A DNA stretch of 64,000 nt from Chitinophaga sp. 180180018-3 (lineage in GTDB: Bacteria; Bacteroidota; Bacteroidia; Chitinophagales; Chitinophagaceae): assembly GCF_037893185.1 (NCBI RefSeq), contig NZ_CP140772.1, positions 992,001-1,056,000 on the forward strand, written 5' to 3'. Under the pieces are notes generated by a model. The model ran no database searches and was not told the DNA's origin. It saw nothing but the letters and a program-made list of their open reading frames with translations. This document shows, one piece after another, positions 25,597-29,889 of this stretch (the stretch's first letter is position 1; each line of letters begins with the position of its first letter). The translations under genes were made by a program, and so were the position numbers.

Positions 25597-26325
25597 TCAG
25601 GCTTCTTCCATGGCTGCTATTTTCAGCAGGGCGGGCAATTTGCCTGGTTCGTGCATGATGGCAGCGAGGGACGACATGTACGGAAAGGAGTGATGGTCCA
25701 TGCCGAATTTATTCAGCAGGTATACATCCAGTTGTTCGGGGGAGGTATGCCCCTGAATATAATCTCCCAGGTAGAAGAGAAATCTTTGTTTTTCCTTTTC
25801 GGAAAGGAGTACCAGGGCCACTTTGTCTTTCAGGCTGTTATGATGGCCGGACCGGAATATTTTAAGGGCTTGTTTGTAGTGGGCCAGGGTGAGCTCGCCG
25901 GCGGCGGCCGGGAGTAGCTGGGTACAGAAATAGTCTACTGCTATATCATCAAAAAAGCCGGCGCCTTCTTCATCGGTGCCAGGTTCGTTGTGCCAGGTAG
26001 CCCACTGGTAGAGCTGTTCGGTGGTGATATGCCCGGTAAGCATCGCTTCCAGCTGATGTATCGTTCCTTCCCGGGTGGGAGTAGTATCAGCGGCATGGGA
26101 AATGGTGGTGACAATTTCCCCGTAGTAATCTTCATTGATATCCCGGGCCACTTTAAACACCAGCCTGCTTACTTCCGTGTGCGTATTTTCTTCCTCCTTA
26201 TGTTGCAACGGGGTAACACTACGTAACTCTTCAATCACTTCCGGCCTCGTTTTAGTACCATGTAGATATGCTTTTAATAATGTTACGAAATAAACAGCCG
26301 TTGTTGGCGACATTTCATTTTTCAT
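25597..26325 (-). CDS. Hypothetical protein with three GHxTxEQL-like repeats
   Basis: The product is 242 aa, helical and cytoplasmic. It has three similar short segments: AYLHGTKTRPEVIEEL (about 19-34), AMLTGHITTEQLYQWA (about 93-108) and DYIQGHTSPEQLDVYL (about 187-202). Each is a helix, a Gly turn, Thr/Ser-x-Glu, then another helix, so the protein may have arisen by triplication of a helical hairpin. I do not recognise the family. It converges on the LuxE-like gene with only a 3-bp gap. Confidence 0.7.
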   Translation of the reverse strand: MKNEMSPTTAVYFVTLLKAYLHGTKTRPEVIEELRSVTPLQHKEEENTHTEVSRLVFKVARDINEDYYGEIVTTISHAADTTPTREGTIHQLEAMLTGHITTEQLYQWATWHNEPGTDEEGAGFFDDIAVDYFCTQLLPAAAGELTLAHYKQALKIFRSGHHNSLKDKVALVLLSEKEKQRFLFYLGDYIQGHTSPEQLDVYLLNKFGMDHHSFPYMSSLAAIMHEPGKLPALLKIAAMEEA

Positions 26326-26474
26326 GGGCCGAAATTGTTACATTTTCATTGGGTACTGGGTCAAAATTAGTATAAAATGACGAATAGTAACCAATAGTCA
26401 ACTACCAATTACCATTCCACATCACCCACTTATCCGCCTTTAACATTTTTTTGGGCTCAAAAGAAAACTAAAAC

Positions 26475-26487
26475 CGGTAATTTACCG
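26475..26487 (+). promoter_or_regulatory. Perfect short palindrome CGGTAA-T-TTACCG upstream of the sigma gene
   Basis: This 13-bp symmetric site lies 53 bp before the start codon of the ECF sigma gene. Its size fits an operator. No known regulator is implied by its sequence. Confidence 0.35.
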
Positions 26488-26540
26488 TATGCTTCCATTG
26501 AGGGGCCTGCCCGAATGGCTATTTAACCAGAAGATGAACC

Positions 26541-27116
26541 ATGGCAACCTGTAATCCAAAAGAATGGGTACGGCTATACGCTGATGATCTGTTCCGATTT
26601 GCCTGCAGCAAAATAGCTGATACCACGCAGGCGCAAGACCTTGTTCAGGATACTTTTCTCAGCGCTTTACAGGCCGCAGACAGCTTCCGGGGAGAGAGCA
26701 GCGAAAAGACCTGGCTGACGGCGATACTTAAAAATAAAATAACAGACCATTACCGGAAAGCAGAGAAAACCATATTTACAATCAGCCTTGAAGAGGCCAG
26801 GAATACCGATAGCGATCCTCTGGAGGTATTTTTTAATGAGAAAGGGCACTGGAAAAAGGAAGCCGGCCCAAAAGCCTGGACAGATGATATCAGCAGTAAG
26901 CAGGAGCGGATGGATTTTCTCAGTATATTACGTGCCTGCATGAATAAACTGACCGGATTAGGGAAAACGGTTTTCCGGCAAAAATACCTCGAAGAAAAAA
27001 AATCTGAACTGATCTGTAAGGAACTGACTATTACTACGTCCAATTACTGGGTAATCGTCCATCGCGCAAAACTGCAGCTGAGGGCCTGCCTGGAAAAAAA
27101 CTGGTTCAGTAATTGA
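26541..27116 (+). CDS. ECF-type sigma-70 factor of the RiPP operon
   Basis: The product is 191 aa. Region 2 has DDLFRFACSKIADTTQAQDL and DTFLSALQAADSFRGES with TWLTAILKNKITDHYRK (about 13-75). Region 4 is at about 125-185 (FRQKYLEEKKSELICKEL and a helix-turn-helix). A 30-residue linker separates them (FFNEKGHWKKEAGP). No region 3 or extra C-terminal domain is present. It lies just upstream of a zinc-finger protein gene and the hvf-like genes, as in gig and bufferin operons. It likely activates these genes under metal or thiol stress. Confidence 0.88.
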   Translation: MATCNPKEWVRLYADDLFRFACSKIADTTQAQDLVQDTFLSALQAADSFRGESSEKTWLTAILKNKITDHYRKAEKTIFTISLEEARNTDSDPLEVFFNEKGHWKKEAGPKAWTDDISSKQERMDFLSILRACMNKLTGLGKTVFRQKYLEEKKSELICKELTITTSNYWVIVHRAKLQLRACLEKNWFSN

Positions 27117-27118
27117 GG

Positions 27119-27382
27119 ATGGGAAAAAGTCGCACATTAATGCCCTGTTGTAAAGAAGCCACCATGCTGGTGGAAAAGCAGTTGCAACATCCATTGCCTT
27201 TTATGCAGTGGATCGGTTTGAAGATGCATTTGCTGATGTGTGTACTGTGCAGACGATATGAAAAACAAAGCAAGGCCATCGATAGGTACCTGAAGGCACT
27301 GACCCTGGAGGAAGCAACCACACTTCCGGAAGAATTGAAAAAGCAATGGGAAATACTGATTGATTCAAAGCTGAAAAAATAA
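27119..27382 (+). CDS. Small zinc-finger protein, probable anti-sigma factor
   Basis: The product is 87 aa from the ATG at 27119, two bases after the sigma stop codon; a TTG start at 27113 is possible. It shows the zf-HC2-type pattern: an N-terminal Cys-Cys-x-x-Ala followed by MHLLMCVLCRRYE (H-x3-C-x2-C) near residues 36-48. Such small ZAS-like proteins bind their cognate ECF sigma and release it when thiols are oxidised or metal is bound. It has no obvious membrane span, so it may be soluble. The function is inferred from position and motif. Confidence 0.75.
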   Translation: MGKSRTLMPCCKEATMLVEKQLQHPLPFMQWIGLKMHLLMCVLCRRYEKQSKAIDRYLKALTLEEATTLPEELKKQWEILIDSKLKK

Positions 27383-27394
27383 TTTCAGTTACCT

Positions 27395-27421
27395 GTAAGG
27401 ATACTCCAACTACCACGTCTA
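27395..27421 (+). promoter_or_regulatory. Candidate ECF promoter upstream of hvfA
   Basis: GTAAGG at 27395-27400 and CGTCTA at 27416-27421 are separated by 15 bp and end 44 bp before the hvfA start. The -10 CGTC is typical of ECF promoters. The partner site upstream of the sigma gene was not found, so this is a suggestion only. Confidence 0.3.
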
Positions 27422-27465
27422 TTCCATTGAACACATATTTTTTCATTCAATTAAATTTTCAAAAG

Positions 27466-27822
27466 ATGAAAAACAACAATCCCATCAACAAAAAAGTTTT
27501 GTTATCAGGTTCGCTGGTTGCAGGTGCTATCCTGGGCCTGGCATCATTGCAGGTAAATGCCAAACCGGTAAGTTACACTAACCTGGGTTCCGGTGCTGCA
27601 GTAAGAGGTGCGTTGACTGGTGCTTCCGGCGCTGCCGCAAATGCCATTGAATTATCCTGCGGCGCTAAGAAAGACAGCGCTATGGCTGGAAAATCCAAAG
27701 AAGGTAAATGTGGCCAGGGCAAATGTGGTGAAGGCAAATGTGGTGATAAGAAGGGGCACAAAAGTGGTGGAAAGAAAGGTGCTGCCAAGCCTAAAGCAGA
27801 TTCATCTAAATCCGGCAGGTAA
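27466..27822 (+). CDS. hvfA: HvfA-type RiPP precursor peptide (metallophore family)
   Basis: The product is 118 aa from the ATG at 27466. A Sec signal peptide (about 1-32, ending VNAK) is followed by the conserved NLGSGAAVRGALTGASG and ELSCGAKK segments. The core then has KEGKCGQGKCGEGKCGDKK, which holds three GKCG motifs (Cys82, Cys87, Cys92), plus a Lys/Gly-rich tail. In HvfA proteins such Cys residues in EGKCG repeats are turned by a DUF692 enzyme into oxazolone/thioamide groups that bind copper. It is followed by a terminator and the maturase genes. The first Cys (65) is in the SCG motif of the leader region. Confidence 0.88.
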   Translation: MKNNNPINKKVLLSGSLVAGAILGLASLQVNAKPVSYTNLGSGAAVRGALTGASGAAANAIELSCGAKKDSAMAGKSKEGKCGQGKCGEGKCGDKKGHKSGGKKGAAKPKADSSKSGR

Positions 27823-27832
27823 GCTTACATCG

Positions 27833-27869
27833 AAAAGACCGGTAGTAGATATAGCCGCCGGTCTTTTTT
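27833..27869 (+). terminator. Strong hairpin between hvfA and hvfB
   Basis: AAAAGACCGG (27833-27842) pairs with CCGGTCTTTT (27858-27867) around a 15-nt loop, with the T-run continuing to 27869. It lies 10 bp after the hvfA stop codon and 30 bp before hvfB. Partial read-through would give more precursor mRNA than enzyme mRNA. Confidence 0.8.
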
Positions 27870-27899
27870 CCGTTTTCCTAACAAACTAAATGTATCATC

Positions 27900-28727
27900 A
27901 TGGTAGGAGTTGGTTTTCGAAGGGAGTTCGCGGAGGAGTTGATCAGCGGCGAACATATCAGGCCGGATTTCGTAGAGTTTGCTCCCGAGAACTGGATGAA
28001 TATAGGTGGGTATTGGAAGAAGATATTGCACCAGGTGGTCGACAAATACCCGGTGCTGTGCCATGGGCTTTCGTTGTCGATCGGCAGTCCCGAGGAACCT
28101 GACCGGGAATTTCTACAGTATCTGAAAACTTTTCTCAACGAATATAAAGTGCAGTTGTATTCGGAGCATCTGAGTTATTCCAAATGCGACAATGCACATA
28201 TGTACGACCTGTTACCGATACCTTTCCGCATGGATGCGGTGAAACATATTGCAGCGCGTATACAGGAAGTACAGGATTTTCTGCAGCGGCCGATGGCGAT
28301 GGAGATCGTATCGTATTATACGCCGGTAGCAGCAGAGATGAGTGAAGCTGAATTCATCCGGGAAGTGGTGGAGCGTTCCGGTTGTCAGTTGTTGCTGGAT
28401 GTTAACAATATTTATGTGAATGCCTTCAATCATCAGTATGATGCCAAAGCATTCATACAGCAGCTTCCGCTGAACAAGGTAGCTTATATACACATGGCCG
28501 GCCATGAGCAGGTGGCGCCGGATCTGATTATAGATACACACGGAGAACCTATTATTGATCCTGTATATGATTTGTTTGAATGGACGCTTCAGCATCTGCA
28601 ACCTGTGCCGGTATTGCTGGAACGGGATTTCAATATCCCTGAGATGAGCGAATTGCAGGGAGAGTTAGTGCGGTTGAAAAGTATCTGTCAAAAACAATGG
28701 AAACTGAAAAATGAGCTTGTTGCCTGA
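27900..28727 (+). CDS. hvfB: DUF692 multinuclear non-heme iron oxidative enzyme (HvfB/BufB type)
   Basis: The product is 275 aa, a TIM-barrel enzyme of the MNIO (DUF692) family that includes MbnB. Expected iron-site residues are visible: His55 in LCHGLSLS, Glu89-His90 in YSEHLSY, Glu135 in MEIVSYYTP, the Asn/Asp of LLLDVNNIYVNAFNH (about 165-178), His198 in YIHMAGH, Asp212/His214 in DTHGEPI, and Glu241 in LLERDFNIP. MNIOs modify precursor Cys residues using iron and oxygen. The start is the ATG at 27900. Its 3' end overlaps the DUF2063 gene by 17 bp, so the two are coupled. Confidence 0.93.
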   Translation: MVGVGFRREFAEELISGEHIRPDFVEFAPENWMNIGGYWKKILHQVVDKYPVLCHGLSLSIGSPEEPDREFLQYLKTFLNEYKVQLYSEHLSYSKCDNAHMYDLLPIPFRMDAVKHIAARIQEVQDFLQRPMAMEIVSYYTPVAAEMSEAEFIREVVERSGCQLLLDVNNIYVNAFNHQYDAKAFIQQLPLNKVAYIHMAGHEQVAPDLIIDTHGEPIIDPVYDLFEWTLQHLQPVPVLLERDFNIPEMSELQGELVRLKSICQKQWKLKNELVA

Positions 28728-29460
28728 CACCCGTCAAATACAGCAGACTTTTTCCGCGTACTGCCGTACCGGAAAGCCTGTAAAGCTGCCCGGCCTCACA
28801 CCTGGCCGCATACAGCATTACCGGCAGTTGGTGTTTAATGTGATCTGCGATACAATGGAGAGCGCATTTCCCATTACATTCAGCAGCATTCCTGCCGGGA
28901 AATGGAACAGGATGGTGAAGGAGTTCTTCGCCCGTCACGCGTGTAAATCGTACCAGGTATGGAAACTGCCGCTTGAATTTTATACCTATGCCGTAGAAAA
29001 TAACTGGGAAGAAGTGCATGCTATTCCTTACCTGAATGACCTCCTGGCCTTTGAATGGGCAGAAATGGAGGTATATAATATGGAAGATATTATGCCGGCG
29101 CCTTATCAGATGTCCGGCAGCTGGACAGACGATCCGCTGGTACTTAATCCGGAGCATCGCCTGTTGCAGTTTGCTTATCCGGTTCACCTTACTTCTGAGA
29201 AGAAAGCATTGCTTTCCCGCAAGGGAACCTACTTTGTATTGCTGCACCGGCATCCGGATACCGGCAACGTGGAATTCACGGATTTGTCGCCCTGGCTGGC
29301 ACTGGTAACAGAGCAAATGGTGCACGGACTAACATTAAAGGATATACTGGAATATGCCCCTCAACTGAATATAACGGTGACGGATATATTGGAGAAAGAT
29401 ACGCTTGCTTTTTTACAACACATGCAGCAGCAACAATTTGTATTGGGGTTTCAAAGATAG
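28711..29460 (+). CDS. hvfC: DUF2063 protein (HvfC/BufC type)
   Basis: The product is 249 aa. The N-terminal QIQQTFSAYCRTG... region and the YRQLVFNVICDTMESAFP helix match DUF2063. The later ILEYAPQLNITVTDILEKDT segment and the acidic, Trp-rich middle fit the HvfC/BufC C-terminal region. In this family the protein is the RRE-like partner that docks the precursor peptide to the DUF692 enzyme. It overlaps the end of hvfB by 17 bp. The DoxX gene follows after 9 bp. Confidence 0.85.
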   Translation: MSLLPDTRQIQQTFSAYCRTGKPVKLPGLTPGRIQHYRQLVFNVICDTMESAFPITFSSIPAGKWNRMVKEFFARHACKSYQVWKLPLEFYTYAVENNWEEVHAIPYLNDLLAFEWAEMEVYNMEDIMPAPYQMSGSWTDDPLVLNPEHRLLQFAYPVHLTSEKKALLSRKGTYFVLLHRHPDTGNVEFTDLSPWLALVTEQMVHGLTLKDILEYAPQLNITVTDILEKDTLAFLQHMQQQQFVLGFQR

Positions 29461-29469
29461 CATAAGCAT

Positions 29470-29889
29470 ATGAGAGCATTCCTGAAAGACCTGCCTTTAT
29501 TGGCGATGCGGCTGGTGCTAGCCTATGGGTTTTATGCGCCGGCTATGATGAAATGGAAAGATATACATGGTATTGGCGACTGGTTCGCGCAGTTGCAGAT
29601 TCCATTACCTTATATCACTGCCTGGGTAGTAGCCATCACGGAGTCGGCAGGGATCATATTGCTGGTAACAGGGTTGTTTGTACGTTTTATAACCCCCTTG
29701 CTGATGGTTAGCATGTTGGCAGCGATATTTACCGTGCATTGGAAGAATGGTTTTGCAGCGGGAGATAATGGCTTTGAGATACCATTGTATTACCTCATTA
29801 TGTTATTTACCTTACTGGTTTATGGAAGCGGGAGGATAGGTCTGGATTATTTCATTCAATTAAAGAAGCGCCGCCGCCCCCGGTATTGA
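29470..29889 (+). CDS. DoxX-family membrane protein of the RiPP operon
   Basis: The product is 139 aa, a four-helix membrane protein (first helix AMRLVLAYGFYAPAMMKWKD). It is in the DoxX family. A DoxX gene is the last member of hvf/gig/buf operons, so it probably works with the RiPP at the membrane. It may assist export, redox exchange or copper handling, but the role is not established. It shows less similarity to the DoxX at 3.5 kb than to the operon-type members, judging from the KWKDIHGIGDW motif, which the other lacks. Confidence 0.85.
   Translation: MRAFLKDLPLLAMRLVLAYGFYAPAMMKWKDIHGIGDWFAQLQIPLPYITAWVVAITESAGIILLVTGLFVRFITPLLMVSMLAAIFTVHWKNGFAAGDNGFEIPLYYLIMLFTLLVYGSGRIGLDYFIQLKKRRRPRY

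Follow-up and report, generated by a model that had tools for sequence, protein, structure and literature searches.

A peptide cassette of the HvfA type that carries its own sigma factor raises the question of what turns the cassette on and what turns it off again. Such a cassette lies in the stretch of DNA analysed here (the window: 64,000 nucleotides of Chitinophaga sp. 180180018-3, NZ_CP140772.1, positions 992,001 to 1,056,000, from a Chitinophaga genome of 8.13 Mb in a single contig), where six co-directional open reading frames (ORFs) stand in a row at 26541-29889 (+): sigma, anti-sigma, precursor, HvfB, HvfC and HvfX. ORFs and profiles confirm the earlier note on this DNA, which had seen in the letters alone a six-gene HvfA-type operon with its own sigma/anti-sigma pair; the promoters, the intragenic site, the msr members of the regulon, the fourth cysteine and the switchless relatives described below were not part of that note. 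With a probability of roughly 0.8, we read the locus as a captophorin cassette (oxazolin/HvfA type) governed by a thiol-sensing sigma switch of its own, with an internal promoter for the anti-sigma gene. This reading is built from sequence, namely gene content, promoter-like sites, the conservation of those sites and relatives that lack the switch, and the steps of the mechanism are inferred.

The first gene (26541..27116, +) encodes an extracytoplasmic function (ECF) sigma factor of 191 aa, which scores 59.5 bits with Sigma70_r2 and 156.8 bits with TIGR02943, just below the cut-off of 162.2. The ZAS anti-sigma factor that follows (87 aa; 27119..27382, +; alternative start TTG 27113) scores 51.9 bits with NF052368 (cut-off 50); no membrane stretch is seen in it, and its zinc-finger residues C11, H37, C41 and C44 match the positions printed for RsrA in PMC2893595. 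The HvfA-like precursor of 118 aa (27466..27822, +) combines a hydrophobic N-terminus, or signal peptide, judged by eye with an LGSGAAVR block, an ELSCG motif and the repeats EGKCG-QGKCG-EGKCG. HvfB, a multinuclear non-haem iron-dependent oxidative (MNIO, DUF692) enzyme of 275 aa (27900..28727, +), reaches 335 bits with PF05114 and 380 with NF003818, ‘HvfB family’ (cut-off 360). Its DUF2063 partner HvfC (PME1, 249 aa; 28711..29460, +) scores 56.5 bits with PF09836 (DUF2063), above the cut-off, and 34 bits with NGO1945_C, while the narrower HvfC equivalog NF050145 gives 119.7 bits against a cut-off of 142; HvfX, a DoxX family protein of 139 aa (29470..29889, +), scores 56.9 bits with DoxX and 105.6 with NF050144 HvfX (cut-off 80). 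The DUF692 and DUF2063 assignments made beforehand from the letters are therefore borne out by profiles. HvfB exceeds its cut-off in 36 of 79 genomes of the genus and in 7 of 395 genomes of the phylum, the window genome being counted in both, and because all 36 genus loci have precursor and HvfC matches adjoining, the set is not a chance assembly. Judged by these matches, it is a Bacteroidota member of the captophorin/oxazolin (HvfA-type) class with a dedicated sigma/anti-sigma pair.

An ECF promoter-like site, TGTAAGG-N15-CGTCT (27394..27420, +), stands upstream of the precursor gene and is the one exact copy in the window, where 0.05 would be expected for the pattern with a spacer of 13-17 N. 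The sigma/anti-sigma pair lies directly upstream in 16 of the 36 genus cassettes and is missing there in the other 20; of seven further loci in the phylum (HvfB over the cut-off, just under it in L106), five have the sigma gene (L100, L101, L103, L105 and L106, the last with its anti-sigma gene after doxX), and L102 and L104 are without it. The relaxed pattern TGTNAGG-N15-CGNC[TC] precedes the precursor in 17 of the 21 sigma-carrying loci (all but L066, L078, L079 and L106) and in none of the 20 sigma-less loci of the genus. A link between the sigma factor and the cassette genes had been named beforehand as a test, and this shared promoter supports it. The site also resembles the published promoter consensus of Neisseria sigmaE, GTMAGBWTT, 12-13 nt, CGTCTAAH (PMC2893595): the window has GTAAGGATA, a spacer of 12 and CGTCTATT, so that 15 of 17 letters fit. 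A scan of whole genomes (16 of the 21 sigma-carrying and 17 of the 20 sigma-less genus genomes) found 41 exact sites in the former (reversed control 12) and 6 in the latter (control 14), one of these six at the cassette remnant of G423 and five without an msr gene behind them.

What is new here is a second copy of the site inside the sigma gene. In 9 of the 16 sigma-carrying genomes scanned, a second exact site lies 355-387 nt 5′ of the first, within the 3′-terminal part of the sigma gene. The window copy, TGTAAGG-N15-CGTCC (27015..27041, +), falls in the codons of sigma region 4.2 and stands 104 nt from the ATG of the anti-sigma gene, or 98 nt from the alternative TTG; in the 20 loci measured, the distance to the first possible anti-sigma start is 71-109 nt. 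The internal site is present in 18 of the 21 sigma-carrying cassette loci, L083 and L105 being off by the last base and L106 without it. Among 20 sigma genes (L106, with no internal site and its anti-sigma gene after doxX, being excluded), the third base is invariant in only 3 of 137 scorable codon columns, and these are exactly the three motif codons, TGT, [A/C]AG and xCG; the chance of hitting exactly these three columns is 1 in 419,220, kinship aside. In the xCG codon the G is constant while the encoded residue is T, P, S or A.

A wider set of 107 sigma genes joins the best 80 of 492 relatives, the 21 cassette genes and seven other Chitinophaga loci, less one duplicate. Before any counts were made, two rows were removed from the loci collected: L244, which lies where L146 does, and L321, the gene already present as L306. 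Here 40 genes have the internal site only, 27 a site upstream of sigma only, none both and 40 neither, an exclusivity with a Fisher probability of 3e-7, not corrected for kinship. Against these 40 internal sites, 500 rounds of within-gene synonymous shuffling gave 2.4 on average and never more than 8. Beyond Bacteroidota, internal sites occur in single bins labelled Ignavibacteriota, Chlorobiota, Thermodesulfobacteriota and Methylococcaceae, the last together with its class. For this class, that of L306 (a Methylococcaceae bin, presumably Gammaproteobacteria), 29 genes were used, from 30 loci in 39 genomes, and 11 have the internal site against a mean of 0.8 and a maximum of 4 in synonymous shuffles; in two members with the internal site, L321 and L325, an EGKCG precursor and an MNIO gene follow the sigma gene. 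As only 8 of the best 80 of 492 sigma relatives have an HvfB-like gene in the surrounding stretch, the internal site looks, on these sequences, like a property of this sigma family rather than of the peptide. We interpret the site as an intragenic promoter that the sigma factor itself recognises and that serves the anti-sigma gene; in L066, L078 and L079, where it is the only site found, it may serve the whole unit. In the available parts of the open-access literature we found no report of an internal promoter in a sigma gene that drives its anti-sigma gene.

Taken together, these elements would form a simple circuit. At rest, the ZAS anti-sigma factor would retain sigma in the cytoplasm, and oxidation of its cysteines by reactive chlorine, disulfide stress or perhaps thiophilic metals would release it. 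Free sigma would then fire the site before hvfA; the precursor would be made in quantity, and MNIO, partner and DoxX, which lie beyond a partial terminator, in smaller amounts. The probable terminator is a hairpin into a T run (27832..27868, +; -18.1 kcal/mol, z -3.6) between the precursor and MNIO genes. HvfB and HvfC would convert the three GKCG cysteines, and perhaps Cys65, to 5-thiooxazoles, and the modified peptide would be exported to the periplasm to bind Cu(I) there. By firing the site inside its own gene, sigma would also renew the supply of anti-sigma while adding no sigma, which would build an off switch into the circuit. If this is true, the active sigma factor makes its own inhibitor and not more of itself.

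The kind of switch is already known, as Neisseria sigmaE/MseR and Haemophilus RpoE2/HrsE control such genes together with methionine sulfoxide reductases. The Neisseria operon NMB2140-2145 (NGO1943-1948), whose product is gonophorin, has in the gonococcal record the same gene types as the window: DoxX, an EGKCG precursor, an MNIO, an ORF in the DUF2063 place (assigned by that place), sigma and a ZAS anti-sigma; the two sigma factors are 37% identical. It differs in that sigma and anti-sigma come last, a single site stands before doxX (TGTCAGT...CGTCT in the gonococcal record, spaced as in the window) and the sigma gene has no internal site. Its sigmaE regulon includes msrA/msrB (PMC2893595, PMC3240639). 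H. influenzae likewise pairs an ECF sigma, RpoE2, with a small cytoplasmic ZAS anti-sigma, HrsE, and controls four hvf-type genes and msrAB, its sigma pair being encoded, unlike that of the window, away from the doxX cluster (PMC7907618); that the doxX cluster is an hvf operon we infer by joining two papers. MseR and HrsE are both small ZAS anti-sigmas without a membrane part that control the same gene types (PMC2893595, PMC7907618), and the suggestion of the earlier note that a soluble zinc finger may set the system apart thus finds no support. A different kind of trigger on account of that finger was accordingly rejected.

The msr connection is seen in other members of Chitinophaga but is absent from the window genome. 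In 10 of the 12 sigma-carrying genus genomes examined (of 16, without G421, G427, G438 and G456), the site stands before msrB or msrA, nine times exactly and once with 2 mismatches; the gene is msrB in 7 of them (6 exact; the inexact site is that of G454) and msrA in the other 3, and in the window genome and G424 it stands before neither. In another family, two of four genomes, G082 (msrB) and G019 (msrB and msrA), have the site as well; in the other two, G361 and G035, the sites are confined to the two of the cassette. Among 17 sigma-less genomes (without G402, G418 and G428), the nearest site to the best msrB has at least 4 mismatches; msrA was assessed there through the six exact sites only.

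The best-surviving rival holds that copper or gold itself is the trigger, as for gig operons, with oxidants secondary. A ZAS site could be stripped by thiophilic metals, an argument in its favor, whereas the promoter shared with msr genes in relatives points to oxidants, and in H. influenzae all four genes of the doxX cluster, the same gene types, are HOCl-induced in an RpoE2-dependent manner (PMC7907618). We regard a metal trigger as doubtful; rather than copper alone, oxidation of the envelope may be what these copper peptides primarily respond to. Yet the oxidants tried in meningococci left sigmaE expression unchanged (PMC2893595).

A second rival concerns the product, which could be chemically different in Bacteroidota through partial modification, another heterocycle or additional modification at Cys65. 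Cysteines stand at four positions of the precursor, 65, 82, 87 and 92, the last three within GKCG. Its repeats agree with the HvfA family, as the earlier note had proposed, but its score of 16 bits is far from the HvfA profile cut-off of 95 (NF050188), for which reason we call it HvfA-like and not an HvfA equivalog. HvfB carries HGLS 55, SEHLS 88, MEIVS 134, LDVNN 166, HMAGH 198, DTHGE 212 and ERDFN 241, and alignment with 3BWW places HGLS, SDHLS, VENTS, LDVNN, HIAGH, DTHGE and ERDFN at the same stretches, which we take to be those holding the iron ligands. The counterparts of Arg15/Arg16 and Asp249/Phe250 of FonB are R7, R8, D243 and F244 (FRRE 6-9; ERDFN 241-245), these Lys-Cys substrate residues being placed by motif and not by structure-based alignment to FonB. 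The chemistry expected for the window peptide, 5-thiooxazoles and Cu(I) binding, is taken from the captophorins (PMC13097082); of the two outcomes that the earlier note had offered, the oxazolone/thioamide once assigned to HvfA is out of date, 5-thiooxazole having taken its place (PMC13097082, PMC13419390). For a different product speak an E[LM]xC-context cysteine ahead of the repeats in 33 of 34 listed genus precursors (L069 and L078 have no precursor entry, as no ATG was found in the extended frame) and the clades described next; against it, HvfB is above its equivalog cut-off with residues of the Lys-Cys class, and FonB likes a small residue at position five (PMC13097082). On balance we find a different product rather unlikely.

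Ten sigma-less loci in two clades (L087 and L089; L088 and L090-L096) have KC[ASTV] in place of KCG, and 4 of the 10 have a change at the Phe250 counterpart (Y, L, N, N). A Y at this position also occurs in sigma-carrying L078 and L079, outside these clades, and L079 has KCG. Given the preference of FonB for a small residue at position five, the KC[ASTV] loci may be natural enzyme-substrate pairs with altered taste.

A third rival bears on the internal site alone: the conserved letters in the sigma gene would reflect a protein or RNA constraint, and their match to an ECF site would be incidental. Region 4.2 is indeed conserved as protein, with C159 and N168 nearly fixed in all classes, and the internal site is absent from 67 of the 107 sigma genes, 40 of which have no upstream site either. 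Against it stand the third-base invariance confined to the motif codons, the excess over synonymous shuffles in both sets and the G kept in xCG while its residue varies. Residue 160 points in the same direction: the internal class has K or Q there, as the motif demands (AAG or CAG), and in the class with the site upstream of sigma the residue is mostly T, S or A, or another. In the alignment of the 107 genes, residue 171 of the recognition helix is V with TGTAAGG in 26 of 26 internal and 27 of 27 upstream sites, and Q with TGTCAGG in 14 of 14 internal sites. When the 900 nt behind the sigma gene are searched for the first further site, V goes with A in 34 of 34 and Q with C in 10 of 10; internal and first downstream sites agree in their -35 letters in 21 of 21, which also counts against this rival; and the opposite strand has a site in 1 of 108 stretches.

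The pairing of V171 with A and Q171 with C at -35 is thus simple in this mainly Bacteroidota set, but it fails in the gammaproteobacterial one, where residue 171 does not predict the internal letter: among the 29 genes, V goes with A in 5 and with C in 3 (3 of 8), and T with C in 2 and with A in 1. A one-residue code as a general rule is weakened by this set, and the failure lowers the odds that the internal site is a self-recognised promoter and raises those of a protein or RNA constraint. Furthermore, V and Q are the two sides of one deep split in the sigma tree and so count as a single event, and one gene of the Q class, L290, has a TGTAAGG site farther off. On the same tree a single clade of 30 rows within the V side, 27 of them with the site, makes up the upstream class, and the internal label changes 20 times, at least 12 of them forced; we take the internal site to be ancient and to have been lost many times, with repeated gain as the alternative. 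With all of this weighed, we consider it probable that an old self-recognised promoter, lying in the codons of the very domain with which sigma reads the -35, drives the anti-sigma gene and dictates residue 160, and that one clade swapped it for a site upstream of sigma. A mere protein or RNA constraint we rank slightly below a different product, and improbable.

If the self-recognised promoter is real, it would be a rare case in which a DNA signal fixes a residue of the very protein that recognises it, and the upstream site of the one clade would turn the circuit towards self-amplification and free residue 160. More broadly, the captophorin stress regulon, known from human-associated proteobacteria, would extend to soil Bacteroidota, with harmless Chitinophaga species as a natural experiment that offers the same locus with and without the switch.

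The weakest rival, that the cassette is constitutive in practice and its sigma and anti-sigma mere neighbours, could cite the 20 of 36 genus loci without sigma and a conserved block that stands upstream of hvfA in 12 of those 20, but is very unlikely, as the promoter tracks sigma and the same upstream flanks in 16 of the 20 mark sigma as missing in place. The flanks are a luxE-like gene and the gene at 25597-26325, found upstream in 12 of 16 sigma-carrying and 16 of 20 sigma-less genus loci, and sigma and anti-sigma were therefore lost or gained in place. Sigma-less L071 retains a fragment of the anti-sigma gene, and on the HvfB tree, from which the MNIO loci of other types (L097-L099, L107-L114) were excluded, sigma presence changes 9 times, at least 6 of them forced by well-supported branches. 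Relocation of sigma in the sigma-less genomes was rejected: only 2 of 20, G402 and G423, carry a relative at another place (E <= 1e-30), of which one belongs to the upstream class and the other lacks both sites, in a search that scored up to 42 candidates per genome and could miss a weak relative.

To the genes without an internal site, the faults of the pairing rule, the many changes on the sigma tree and the 20 sigma-less cassettes must be added several further observations that weigh against the interpretation of the locus as a sigma-switched captophorin cassette. The -10 of the internal site in the window is CGTCC and not CGTCT, and the precursor is under every profile cut-off, including KCGExKCG (14.2 bits, cut-off 19.5). 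Sigma-less L062, L071 and L072 keep near or displaced sites. The window genome has 2 exact sites, as many as its reversed control, and the second (L116) was rejected as a target, since only a 73-aa ORF follows it; the site is missing, too, before its msrB and msrA.

Among other known systems, fontiphorin and oxazolin (captophorins) share with the window the MNIO, the DUF2063 partner and the EGKCG repeats, 5-thiooxazole and Cu binding having been described for them (PMC13097082, PMC13419390); the window has fewer repeats, three GKCG, and the fon cluster consists of MNIO, partner and precursor only. Bufferin 1 is likewise an MNIO copper peptide with an ECF sigma, but has a DUF2282 precursor and an NrsF-type anti-sigma (PMC12452194). 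The same paper places sigma and NrsF with Buf1 and finds EGKCG clusters mainly in Pseudomonadota, and words beginning ‘bacteroid’ are absent from the portion of its main text examined. Chryseobasin/DybA-type peptides are MNIO products of Bacteroidota, including Chitinophaga, with a different precursor, of the CPACGMG kind (PMC12636315). We found no report of Chitinophaga or Bacteroidota captophorins in the open-access literature.

Several features of the locus accompany these results. The conserved block AAAACTAAAAC...CCGTATGC (26464..26492, +), upstream of sigma, is a candidate promoter or operator for sigma and not of the sigma factor's own promoter type; one or both halves of AAAACTAAAAC...CCGTA[AT]GC occur in 24 of 36 genus loci, 12 of 16 with sigma and 12 of 20 without. 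The hairpin behind the precursor gene is absent from the output of a simple terminator scan, and a hairpin before a T run is seen in 31 of 41 precursor-MNIO gaps, a count without a shuffle control for these gaps. A sigma-70 promoter scan found 5 sites against 7.5 in shuffles. Comparison with solved structures gave no match for HvfC and, for the anti-sigma, weak matches only, mostly to repeat proteins. Upstream of hvfA in L078, L079, L065, L087 and L089, a TTAGGAATCC/TTAGGATTCC-like element, recognised by eye, is shared where the usual site is absent; is it a second regulatory input? In sigma-less L102 (G012), an EGKCG-type precursor has a different ECF-like ORF upstream, unmatched by the window sigma.

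The window genome has two further MNIO loci. L003 (G000:C1:7582095-7582724) encodes a ChrH/DybH-like MNIO with a lipoprotein-like precursor ending CPACGMG and is the separate locus of the chryseobasin/DybA type. L002 (G000:C1:7236596-7237363), the third MNIO, is preceded by an 80-aa ORF with GCQACLSG, without a Cys repeat seen, and has a possible partner after it. Other Bacteroidota MNIOs (L110-L113, L097-L099, L114) follow long Cys-rich ORFs unlike HvfA (e.g. CMGLNACKG...GQGGCG).

Sigma paralogs occur in other settings. In L145 and L146 (Chitinophaga G415 and G463), a sigma paralog, with a CGACT site upstream of it, and a ZAS anti-sigma precede a short, secreted-looking, Cys-free peptide rich in Met, His and Lys (MHHKMDKMHKMDKK...), with no MNIO ORF noted; the peptide is reminiscent of methionine-rich hypochlorite scavengers such as MrpX. 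In L147 and L149 (G460 and G426), the same paralog class is followed by small secreted-looking proteins with GYDPV[AS][FY]F, presumably YHS-like. L351 (NZ_CP119142.1) is a 2.17-Mb record labelled a gonococcal plasmid, chromosome-like in size, with 17 annotated features. On plasmids, L352 (Moraxella sp. DOX410, 11 kb) groups DoxX, DUF692, sigma and a DNA-binding-domain (DUF2063-like) gene, the last separated from DUF692 by an IS4 transposase, and L354 (Klebsiella quasipneumoniae pKAM645_4, a conjugative plasmid) clusters sigma, a zf-HC2 protein, MsrPQ, DoxX and a DUF2063-like gene, the last annotated as "DNA-binding domain-containing protein", a name borne by DUF2063 genes.

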